Shown here: piece by piece, positions 33,340 to 50,572 of the stretch | How the letters are laid out: the number at the start of each line of letters is the position of its first letter | How positions within the stretch are numbered: the first letter of the stretch is position 1 | Source of the DNA: Polytrichum commune | Lineage: Eukaryota; Streptophyta; Polytrichopsida; Polytrichales; Polytrichaceae | Assembly: GCA_950295325.1 (NCBI GenBank) | Contig: OX485803.1 | Coordinates: forward strand, 21,390,001-21,454,000 | Reading direction: 5' to 3' | DNA length: 64,000 nucleotides | Notes under the pieces: model-generated | The model's input: only the letters and a program-made list of their open reading frames with translations | Told to the model about the DNA's origin: nothing | Database searches by the model: none | Made by a program: the position numbers and the translations under genes

Positions 33340-34293
33340 AACTAGCAAACTTCATTTCTGAATCTGCAGCCATGTTTTTTGGAGTTAGGTTTTTTGCAGC
33401 TGTGTTTCCCTGGCATTTAGAGACCATGGACTACAGCAAGGTATGCGGGCCTGTCATGGACACTTTCACCTCCGCATACACTTTTGGCCATTGGTTGGGA
33501 TCACAAATTGTTCCATCTGGTGAGCAATTGTGGATCGAGACGATTGTCAAAATCGGAGTTTGAAATGCAAAAGTTGGAAGATGTCAAAGATTTTCCTTGT
33601 TTTATTGAGCAATCACATAGGCCCTGCCATTTGTGTTAACCGCTATAACTGAGAATGGTGTCCTTATTTTTAAGCAATGTCATTGTAACATGTGTCTTTT
33701 TGGTGTCTATTCTTAGCTATAATCCTTGCCACATACCACTCGAATATAGGCTTTTGCATAAGATAAAGTGATCGATTAAGGCTCGCCTACCTTGGTTGCA
33801 AATTTCAACAGAAGGCAATTATGGTAGCAATAGCTTTTTAGCTTTTTTTTGCATTAATATGGCTTTTGAGATGGTTCCATGTCACAAACATTTGATGGAC
33901 ATACAAGGTTTATGGGTGATTTCTTTGGGGCCCACAATCAAGATATGTGGCGTGTTCGCATCTATGAGAAATAGCAAGAATCAGCGATAGCATCTATTTT
34001 TAATGCCATTAAAAGGACTATGAAGATTTCGTTTCCTTTTTCATCTCTTTTAAAATCGGGTTTCATGTTTTCTTTTTCTTTTTTCTCTTAAAAATAAAAG
34101 TACTCAAAGTAAAAGTAACAAGTTATCTTTACATATACATATAGTCATGCATTCTTGTGTCTCTCTCTTTGGCAACATCTTGGGGTTCTCCTCTAGCTTT
34201 TTGTTTTTGTTGTCTTCCAGCACTTGATTCTTCCAGTGAGTTGAGTTTTGTGACATTTTCTAATTTTTTCATAAACGTCTAGGAATTTGTGCA

Positions 34294-35783
34294 ATGGAGA
34301 TTGGAGATGCTCCTCCTCCCACATGCCCCCACTGTGGTTGCAAGGAAAGCAAGCCCAAGTACAACAACAACAAAAAACCGGACCAACTTCGGGTGGAGTG
34401 TCAAAAATGTGGCAAATTGTTCCAACGTAGCCCGAAACGCAAGGTGCATCCCGAGGGCTACAAGAAGGAGAAGGTGGAGGAGCCCATGCAATACAAAGTT
34501 CTGATCAAGCAATGCAATGCTTGCAAAAGTACCGACGCCAAGTTCTATAGCTTGAATAATAATGACCCGTTGCAACCACGCTACAAGTGCAAGAACCCCA
34601 CATGCAAGAAAGTCTTCACCCCTTTCAAGAAGTCACAATTGCTCAACCAAAAGCCCGCTCTTGTCAAGAGCGTTAGGCAACGAACGACCACTGGTGACAC
34701 CACCACAGAGATTGATTCATTCCACACGAGTACTCTTGACTTCAATTATAATTCATTTTCGTTGGCTGACGAAATCTTGGGCACATGGGAGAGCAACTCA
34801 GGTTTATAGATGAGAAAATTCATTTGTTCAATATAGTAGTTTTCCTAGTTTCATTTGTGTTATCTCAATGAATTTTATTGACAGGGTTGACCTCAGGTTT
34901 AAACAGAAGGGTATTGGATGATTAACATATAATAAGAAAACCTAGTGTGCATGGGTCATTGATGTATAGTTATTGAGGATATCGCAGCCTTATTAAATTA
35001 CTCTATGGTTTCTTATACCTAATATCCATATTAGATAACCCTATTAATATAAGAACCTCATGCTTTGATATGAGCTAATTATAAATATGAGTGACTTAAT
35101 TTTGTTGATGACACACGTTTTTTTATACAGGAGCGGTTGATGGCAATGGTCCAAACACAAGCTACTCAAGTGCTTCCAACGGCGCCGAATATTTTACTCA
35201 AACCGCAACCACATCATTGCATGATGCACCAAACGACCGTGTGTATAACTCAATTGCCACCCATAACAATACCAGTGGAGAAGCATTTGGTTTGGGTCAA
35301 ACTGCTCAGAACGTGTACAAAGATCTAAATACATATAATATTGGAATCACTACACACAACCACTATGGAGAAGGAGGAGGTTCAACAGTATATCAACATG
35401 GCATTCCTAATCTACCACCTACTTGGCCTCCCTATCCCGCACTCAATAACCTTCCGGATTCAACAAACATTCACGACAATGCCTCGACTAGTTCTTCAAG
35501 TGCTTCATATCATGCAAGCTCATTCACAAATGGACCACAAACTCTACAAGATCGTGAGTATAACATGCAATTGAATTCGGGAAGAACTTACAATGTGAGA
35601 TTTCTTGCCTTGACACAACCTCCCGAAAACATGTTTAGCGGGTCCATCTATCAAGCACCTGAAGGAGGCATGCATGAAGGCTACACAAACAACATCATTG
35701 ATAGTCAATTGGACAACCCCCAACGATTAGCTAATGGTGGACCTATAAGGCGAAATCGTCAAAGATACACCAACCTTCAATAG
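34294..35783 (+). CDS. Protein with two Dof-like zinc fingers in tandem
   Basis: Exons 34294-34801 and 35131-35783 join in phase to 386 residues. Finger 1 is residues 11-39 (CPHC, 21 residues, CQKC), exactly the C-x2-C-x21-C-x2-C spacing of Dof DNA-binding domains. Finger 2 is residues 74-104 (CNACKSTDAKFYSLNNNDP, then LQPRYKC, then C after four residues). It carries the Dof hallmarks S-T-x-x-K-F, N-N and Q-P-R-Y-x-C, but has C-x4-C in the second half and FT in place of the usual W-T. Lys/Arg-rich linkers follow each finger. Residues 170-386 are Asn/Ser/Thr/His-rich without structure, as in Dof activators. A nuclear DNA-binding role is inference. The gene starts 950 bp after the neighbour on the same strand. 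An acceptor-like CGTCTAG 12 bases before the ATG suggests a 5'-UTR intron. Confidence 0.78.
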
Positions 35784-35799
35784 GCCACCCTATTAAGGG

Positions 35800-36900
35800 A
35801 TTAGAGCTTTATAAAGTTTTGGCAACAAAAAACTCACCAACAATGTTGTAAGCGGAGATTACTTAAGTGAAGATATATTTTGTTTCTTTATAATAAGGCA
35901 TTATAATTGCCAAAATACCAACTTTCTCATGAATTGTCCCTGGTGCCTTGGGGGAGTCCCTTTTTTGTGATTTTTGGGCGAATTTGAGCTGATTCGCGAT
36001 GGGGATGCAGGGGTTAGTGCCGCAATTTCTTCTCGATGCTAATGTGGCTGGTGGGTTATCTTATTTTGTGTTTTATTGTCACGAGAGAGCGGAGGGTTTT
36101 CAATCATCCTATGTAGGATTTCGAGTGCGCTCTCCTTCACAAACACTCTGTTCGGCCAATTTTTTCCACTGCTTACGGCAGGTTCCTGTTGGGATCGTGG
36201 ATTTGCGAGTCCTCTTAATTTTAGTCCAATCAAATTCTGCAGTCATGAAAAAACTCCTCATTCCCGTGGGACGTTCTGCAGTGCCTCAATTTCTTCTCGA
36301 AACACAAAACCCAGATTACACACCATCCACATCTATTCGAGAAGAAATTGAGGAAAAAACAATGATTCGCGAGAACATACAATTGCAATAGGAGATTCGT
36401 CTTTGTTTCAATCCGACCAATTTGTGTAGGAGGAGGTGCTGCAGGTTTTTGCTATAAGAACTTAGGTCATCTGAATCTTAATTCCTTGCTGATATGATGA
36501 TGATCGACGTTAGCCTTGTGGGGTTTTGCCTGGGGTTAGTTAACTACTTGGTATCAGACCTTTCGAGGATGTAAAATTACCTTTGCACTCTTTCGCCCGC
36601 CACAGAATATACGCTGAGCAGGATGCTTGGATGCATCAAGCTTATCGTCTATGTCATTTAATTAGATTGTTTGACATTGTGATGTTGTTTGGTCGGAAAC
36701 TATAAATTAAAAATTAAAAACAGAGGAGGTTGTTCCGAAATGTATGAAACCCAACATGGAGTAGTAAATGGTCACTTCATAGATTCTTTAGACTCTGTTC
36801 TTCCGAACACAATCTCGTTTCTCAATTGATCAATTTGTTGAATCTTCTTCTTTCTCGAGGAGGTAGTGAACATCTTCTTATCAGTAACTTACAACTAGAC
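35800..36900. other. Intergenic stretch downstream of the Dof-like gene
   Basis: Two overlapping plus-strand frames (35999-36391) have no domain. TTTCTTCTCGA-type words recur at 36026 and 36291. No convincing exon was seen. Confidence 0.35.
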
Positions 36901-49552: not shown

Positions 49553-50572
49553 GGTCCAAATGTTCGAGGACCTCGGGGGATTGCGGAGTTAGCAAGGGAG
49601 CGGCTCTCGATTGTTGCAACTTGCGATAAGTTCGTCACCTCTGTTGTGTGGGTTGTTGAGATAACCGATCCCCTGATGTTTCCATTGCCTTCTACTTCAA
49701 ATGTATGTTCGAGGACCTCGGGGGATTGCGGAGTTAGCAAGGGAGCGGCTCTCGATTGTTGCAACTTGCGATAAGTTCGTCACCTCTGTTGTGTGGGTTG
49801 TTGAGATAACCGATCCTCTGATGTTTCCGTTGCCTTCTACTTCAAATGTGTGTTCGAGGACCTCGGGGGATTGCGGAGTTAGCAAGGGAGCATCTCTCGA
49901 TTGTTGCAACTTGCGACAAGTTCGCCACCTCTGTTGTGTGGGTTGTTGAGATAACCGATCCTCTGATGTTTCTGTTGCCTTCAGCTTCAAATGTATGTTC
50001 GAGGACCTCGGGGGATTGCGGAGTTAGCAAGGGAGCGGCTCTCGATTGTTGCAACTTGCGATAAGTTCGTCACCTCTGTTGTGTGGGTTGTTGAGATAAC
50101 CGATCCTCTGATGTTTCCGTTGCCTTCTACTTCAAATGTGTGTTCGAGGACCTCGGGGGATTGCGGAGTTAGCAAGGGAGCATCTCTCGATTGTTGCAAC
50201 TTGCGACAAGTTCGCCACCTCTGTTGTGTGGGTTGTTGAGATAACCGATCCTCTGATGTTTCTGTTGCCTTCAGCTTCAAATGTATGTTCGAGGACCTTG
50301 GGGGATTGTGGAGTTAGTAGGCGAGCGGCTCTTGATTGTTGCAACTTGCGACAAGTTCACCACCTATGCCGTGTGGGTTGTTGAGATAACCAATCCTCTG
50401 ATGTTTCCATCGCCTTCTGCTTCAAATGTATGTTCGAGGACCTCGGGGGATTGCAGAGTTAGCAGGGGAGTGGGTCTTGATCGTTGCAACTTGCGACAAG
50501 TTTGTCACCTCTGCTATGTGGGTTGTTGAGATAACCGATCCTTTGATGTTTCTGTCGCCTTCTGCTTCAAAT
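49553..50572. repeat. 145-bp tandem array, seven copies, with 290-bp higher-order unit
   Basis: Copies start near 49556, 49701, 49846, 49991, 50136, 50281 and 50426. Each runs from TTCGAGGACCTCGGGGGATT to TGCTTCAAATGT or TACTTCAAATGT. Copies 2 and 4 are nearly identical to each other, as are 3 and 5, while adjacent copies differ at several sites. Copies 6 and 7 are the most diverged. Frames remain open across copies on both strands. Confidence 0.9.

Follow-up and report, generated by a model that had tools for sequence, protein, structure and literature searches.

Dof stands for 'DNA binding with one finger', and a predicted gene in the window, the 64,000-nucleotide stretch analysed here (C1:21390001-21454000), raises the question of whether one protein of this kind can carry two such fingers. 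If it can, the origin of the pair and its remaining relation to DNA become the matters of interest. The sequence-only reading of this DNA had proposed two Dof-like zinc fingers in one protein, belonging to a tandem or ancestral Dof-like family.

A predicted two-exon gene with two Dof-like fingers

Inspection of reading frames and splice sites predicts a gene at 34294-35783 on the plus strand, with two exons and a 386-residue product. The ATG at 34294 lies within an open frame spanning 34264-34809. The intron would begin with GT at 34802 and end with ACAG at 35130, which keeps the frame, while an alternative acceptor AG ending at 35133, 3 bases downstream, would give 385 residues. Residues 1-125, the two-finger region, have a net charge of +17. 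The tail after residue 125 has a net charge of -11, and 102 of its 261 residues are S, T, N or Q.

Features of the predicted two-finger gene, in window coordinates
Feature	Position	Strand	Description
Exon 1	34294..34801	+	Start codon, both zinc-ribbon modules and beginning of the tail; start aligned with the L002 start
Finger 1	34324..34410	+	Residues 11-39, C-x2-C-x21-C-x2-C; PF02701 25.0 bits (cut-off 26.6)
Linker	34447..34494	+	HPEGYKK arm (residues 52-58) and EPMQY arm (residues 63-67); both motifs recur next to paralogue fingers
Finger 2	34513..34605	+	Residues 74-104, C-x2-C-x21-C-x4-C; PF02701 35.1 bits, above the cut-off
Predicted intron	34802..35130	+	GT...ACAG; not present in paralogue L002
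Exon 2	35131..35783	+	Polar (S/T/N/Q-rich) tail, net negative; stop codon
C-terminal stretch QPPENMFSGSIYQ...NGGP	35562..35750	+	Common to L002; E 1.3e-4, 44% identity

The closest paralogue, L002 (C4:2192764), is 67% identical over residues 9-120 and carries both fingers and a tail within one 311-residue frame. The L002 C-terminus aligned to exon 2 with a score of 106, compared with a maximum of 61 in 1000 shuffles. As a query against the genome, exon 2 matched only itself and the L002 site behind the fingers (E up to 1). Since this match sits behind the L002 fingers, exon 2 would belong behind the fingers here as well, with the intron missing in L002. The comparison supports a single gene formed by exons 1 and 2. 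It also backs the 34801/35131 joining predicted earlier, the fingers and the exon-2 match being found within one frame.

The finger cysteines lie at residues 11, 14, 36 and 39 (finger 1) and 74, 77, 99 and 104 (finger 2). These positions agree with the original description of two modules 63 residues apart, start to start, of which the first has the exact Dof spacing and the second ends in C-x4-C. The Dof profile PF02701 matched the whole protein at 45.5 bits (E 8.4e-12, cut-off 26.6). When the fingers were taken alone, the proposed Dof identity held above the Pfam cut-off for finger 2 (E 1.5e-8), and finger 1 came just under it (E 2.1e-5), both being Dof-like by profile. The same two matches are weaker in a search of the whole genome (408 Mb), at E 4.5e-5 and 0.0058. 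Comparison with solved structures gave 21 sequence matches, among which CDF1 (8xuf) was the sole Dof, at E 0.059 and covering residues 71-109.

The protein departs from the family description in having more than a single finger, the two sharing one frame, and the R-Y-W that follows the last cysteine of Dofs is absent, with K-L-F and K-V-F found in the window fingers. All 28 family modules tested matched PF02701 (E up to 0.01, best 1.1e-19). At the same threshold, other ribbon profiles matched between one and four of the 28: PaaD 4, Zn_ribbon_8 4, Lar 3, InsA 2 and IS1595 1. On these sequence criteria both modules are Dof-like and the tandem arrangement is real. The profile match, taken with a separate side in the module tree (below), points to a related group and not to a plain member of the Dof family.

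A Dof-like family and the history of its fingers

We searched the genome, a 407.8 Mb assembly whose seven chromosome-size contigs, C1-C7, range from 42.1 to 77.9 Mb, with the Dof profile. Another contig, C8, holds two intact PsaA/PsaB-family frames side by side, which points to the plastid. The PsaA protein that it encodes is nearest to PDB chains 8htu, 6l35 and 9lut, the first two being from the moss Physcomitrium patens, and the genome is accordingly that of a plant, most likely a moss. The search gave 82 places; the 69 over 22 bits were retained and the 13 weakest dropped, a threshold picked once the match list was known. Merging places less than 700 bases apart left 48 loci, comprising 8 canonical Dofs (113-120 bits) and 40 non-canonical loci (fingers at 22-71 bits), a number that takes in fragments and broken copies and, as for any large family counted here, is a lower bound. 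Half of the non-canonical loci are multi-finger (19 with two fingers and one with three), and the fingers share one open frame in 19 of these 20, the exception being L026. The suggested tandem Dof-like family is thus borne out, the two-finger arrangement being common to many paralogues. Short arms recur around the modules, EPxxY/L preceding a large share of the fingers and HPxGYxK following finger 1 in several two-finger groups. The tail is net negative in 11 of the 12 other loci examined and slightly positive in L005.

Several loci have features of their own. L003 (C3:5255491-5255820), a paralogue in the window's group, is interrupted by a TAG in finger 1 while its finger 2 stays open, and is either broken or a one-finger remnant; L026 is a broken relative that also contains a TAG. 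In the group-B two-finger proteins L006, L007, L008, L009 and L023 (C3, C4) repeated acidic units can be seen by eye in the tail, and the net tail charge, computed for two of them, is -49 in L006 and -97 in L007. GRPK or GRPR immediately precedes a finger in L005-L009, L010, L023, L025 and L027, and we take this motif to resemble an AT-hook core. The three-finger Dof-like frame is L031 (C4:7642400-7645200). L047 (C5:49293900-49295000) is, by eye, near-identical to the third finger and tail of L031 and is a partial gene copy. The one-finger loci L040, L041 and L042 (C1, C5 and C7) are near-identical: the other two match at 95-97% over about 660 of 901 bases and nowhere beyond, and by this pattern a short segment has recently been duplicated to dispersed sites. 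Four non-canonical Dof-like loci stand in a row within 5 kb at C6:44468244-44472987, near the end of C6 (44651608 bases).

The module tree comprised 58 modules and 55 columns, all from this genome, with near-identical copies merged (L008 and L009 into L007); many of its forks are open. A second tree was thinned by twelve near-copies and by five rows that were long or truncated. Among these modules of a single genome, a branch with support of 100/99 separates every non-canonical module from the 8 canonical Dofs. A split of this kind gives no proof that the non-canonical set is the older, and the notion of an ancestral Dof is not supported. In group A, to which the window protein belongs, finger 1 forms a clade at 100/98 (3 rows) and finger 2 a clade at 100/97 (4 rows). 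In group B the finger 2 clade has support of 97/88, and finger 1 forms a clade at 97/92 if the first finger of the broken L026 is included. The same groups recur in the thinned tree, where support for group-B finger 1 together with the L026 finger is 92/92. Since fingers of the same position cluster across paralogues, the pairing within each group is older than the duplication.

Constrained groupings were compared by AU test on the two trees, with p values uncorrected for multiple testing. Placing both fingers of group B in one clade was rejected (p 0.0066 and 0.0106). For both group A fingers as one clade the test gave no rejection (0.281 and 0.396). The corresponding values were 0.066 and 0.068 for finger 1 of A and B held together, 0.121 and 0.136 for finger 2 of A and B held together, and 0.125 and 0.102 for the cross-pairing of A finger 2 and B finger 1. 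A single finger pair ancestral to all two-finger groups is neither supported nor rejected by these trees.

Constraint, DNA-contact residues and proposed function

Comparison of the window gene with L002 over 110 aligned codons gave a dN/dS of 0.49 for the finger region (bootstrap 0.29-0.84, with a share of 0.005 at or above 1). The two proteins keep 74 of 110 residues, a level that none of 5000 neutral runs attained (highest 68), and all eight finger cysteines were kept in only 15 of these runs. These substitution patterns indicate that the finger region is under purifying selection. Divided by part, dN/dS is 0.71 for finger 1 (43 codons) and 0.30 for finger 2 (57 codons), and constraint on finger 1 is weak. 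The tails align poorly (32% identity), which makes a tail dN/dS unreliable. Finger 2 is the more conserved in three of three pairs in subgroup A (three proteins), but in only 5 of 15 pairs in subgroup B, so a leading finger 2 may be limited to the subgroup of the window protein.

CDF2 loses DNA binding altogether with Y171A or W172A, and its binding is much reduced by changes at K166 and R170 (PMC9477738). Judged by distance from the cysteines, the equivalents of K166, R170, Y171 and W172 are K100, K106, V107 and F108 in finger 2, and Q37, K41, L42 and F43 in finger 1. All 8 canonical Dofs have the tryptophan, and none of the 45 tabulated non-canonical fingers does; this table of distinct modules omits L025 finger 2, L031 finger 3 and the interrupted finger 1 of L003. 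Its place is taken in every one of the 45 by another aromatic residue (F in 39, Y in 6). The R and Y preceding it are each found in 8/8 canonical Dofs, and in 4/45 (R) and 8/45 (Y) non-canonical fingers. Directly after Q-x-R, 7 of the 8 canonical Dofs carry H and 42 of the 45 non-canonical fingers carry Y. Loss of both W and Y could mean lost DNA binding, but since all 45 fingers retain an aromatic residue, we think a modified DNA interface likelier than an abolished one.

We consider it probable that the locus is a functional nuclear gene, in a plant that is most likely a moss, for a two-finger Dof-related protein, one of an expanded non-canonical Dof-like set, with the following roles. The protein would probably be a regulator of transcription whose DNA interface is altered, and each finger would bind one zinc ion. 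The main nucleic-acid-binding ribbon would be finger 2, in which QPRYKC, 'FT' and the lysines near the last knuckle are retained; its specificity would differ from, or be weaker than, that for AAAG. Finger 1, the faster diverging in subgroup A, may act as an accessory ribbon that provides extra affinity or contacts a partner. Its faster divergence in this subgroup fits, without proving it, the idea raised in the sequence-only reading that one finger has turned to protein contacts. The bipartite DNA recognition also raised there is a conjecture. The basic arms (HPEGYKKEK) may help in DNA contact and nuclear entry, and the polar, net negative tail may work in transcription control. A wider proposal, which we put forward tentatively and with some doubt, is that mosses evolved a parallel class of Dof-derived regulators. 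These would have one to three ribbons, a W to F/Y interface, finger positions that specialised early and separately, and a composite recognition unlike the AAAG reading of one finger.

The main rival to a DNA-binding regulator is a protein whose paired ribbons no longer bind DNA and act by protein-protein contacts, for example as a partner or competitor of canonical Dofs. The tryptophan missing from 45 of 45 non-canonical fingers and the V and L found at the Y171 position of the window fingers speak for it, given the abolished binding of the two CDF2 alanine mutants (PMC9477738). However, the substitute for W is always aromatic, which argues for an interface altered rather than abandoned, and the finger region is still strongly basic; we regard complete loss as rather unlikely.

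A decaying or chance gene, in which a drifting copy of a Dof-like fragment has been dressed with an artefactual two-exon model, would account for the high finger 1 ratio, the stops in the relatives L003 and L026, and the repeat with 97-99% identical copies that begins 155 bases behind the stop codon. It is hard to reconcile with a finger-region dN/dS below 1, with the retention of 8 out of 8 finger cysteines, or with an exon 2 conserved at the right place in L002, and we judge it improbable. Less credible still is that the modules are an unrelated or transposon-derived zinc ribbon (IS1595/InsA-like) with a Dof likeness acquired by convergence, a possibility that the earlier reading had itself named as its refutation. 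Weak matches to PaaD, Zn_ribbon_8, Lar, InsA and IS1595 do occur in some of the 28 modules, but the Dof profile matches every one of them, and on profiles such an origin is disfavoured. Moreover, the intermediate locus L040 (70.6 bits) shares T-x-GG-T-x-R...PVG behind the finger with canonical Dofs. With the whole protein as query, IS1595 reached 12.5 bits, compared with a cut-off of 25.4, and InsA was not among the matches.

Relation to known Dof proteins and surroundings of the gene

Relative to canonical Dofs (PF02701; CDF2, CDF1 8xuf; L032-L039), the window fingers have in common the zinc ribbon C-x2-C-x21-C, N-N, the Q-x-R core and the basic region, and finger 2 additionally shares K-F and Q-P-R. 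Canonical Dofs have one finger and W and bind [T/A]AAAG, whereas the window protein has two fingers, a C-x4-C end in finger 2 and F for W. The one-finger non-canonical loci L040-L045, L010 and L017 share with it the EP arm before the finger, the QPRY core and F/Y for W, but have a single finger, and L040-L043 retain a T-H-GG and PVG/PVD stretch that is nearer to canonical Dof.

More than one Dof domain has been counted in four genes of Physcomitrella patens, three of Ceratodon purpureus and nine of three flowering plants in a 2024 review (PMC10842470), the main text of which notes that such genes are possibly artefacts and that the domains of one gene group together. The likeness to these moss genes, of which the main text gives no anatomy, lies in the presence of more than one Dof domain per gene, and any kinship with them is putative. 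While domains of the same gene group together in that account, here a single clade for the two group-B finger positions was rejected (AU test above). A phrase search of open-licence literature returned no paper on a two-Dof plant protein; the same phrases missed PMC10842470 and may have missed other wordings too. Fingers in one frame in 19 of 20 loci, old and distinct finger positions, and 40 non-canonical loci compared with 8 canonical ones make an artefact unlikely in the present case. The two-finger Dof is a real variant of a known family, little described among the open-licence papers listed, and not a first sighting. What is new here is a dense, chromosome-scale case with anatomy, finger history, constraint and residue change. 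With this family one can test directly how a DNA reader with one finger becomes modular and what takes the place of an essential tryptophan.

We also looked at repeats around the gene. When the best 40 of 637 candidate matches were scored, the coding part had a single DNA relative, L002 (78% over 313 bases), and the idea that the gene lies inside a repeat was set aside on this result, although both flanks touch repeats. Upstream, 33602-33809 has 35 diverged matches (71-83%) across all seven chromosomes among the best 40 of 637 candidates. Downstream, a repeat occupies 35938-36600 and probably extends beyond, starting 155 bases behind the stop codon; it recurs at 97-99% in four other places (C1, two on C2, and C6) and is probably a young mobile element. 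Within it, near 36548, lies the stretch TGGTATCAGA, which we take to resemble a copia-type primer binding site. Further along the window, at 49560-49994, a 145-base unit is present in three tandem copies with 93-99% identity to the first.
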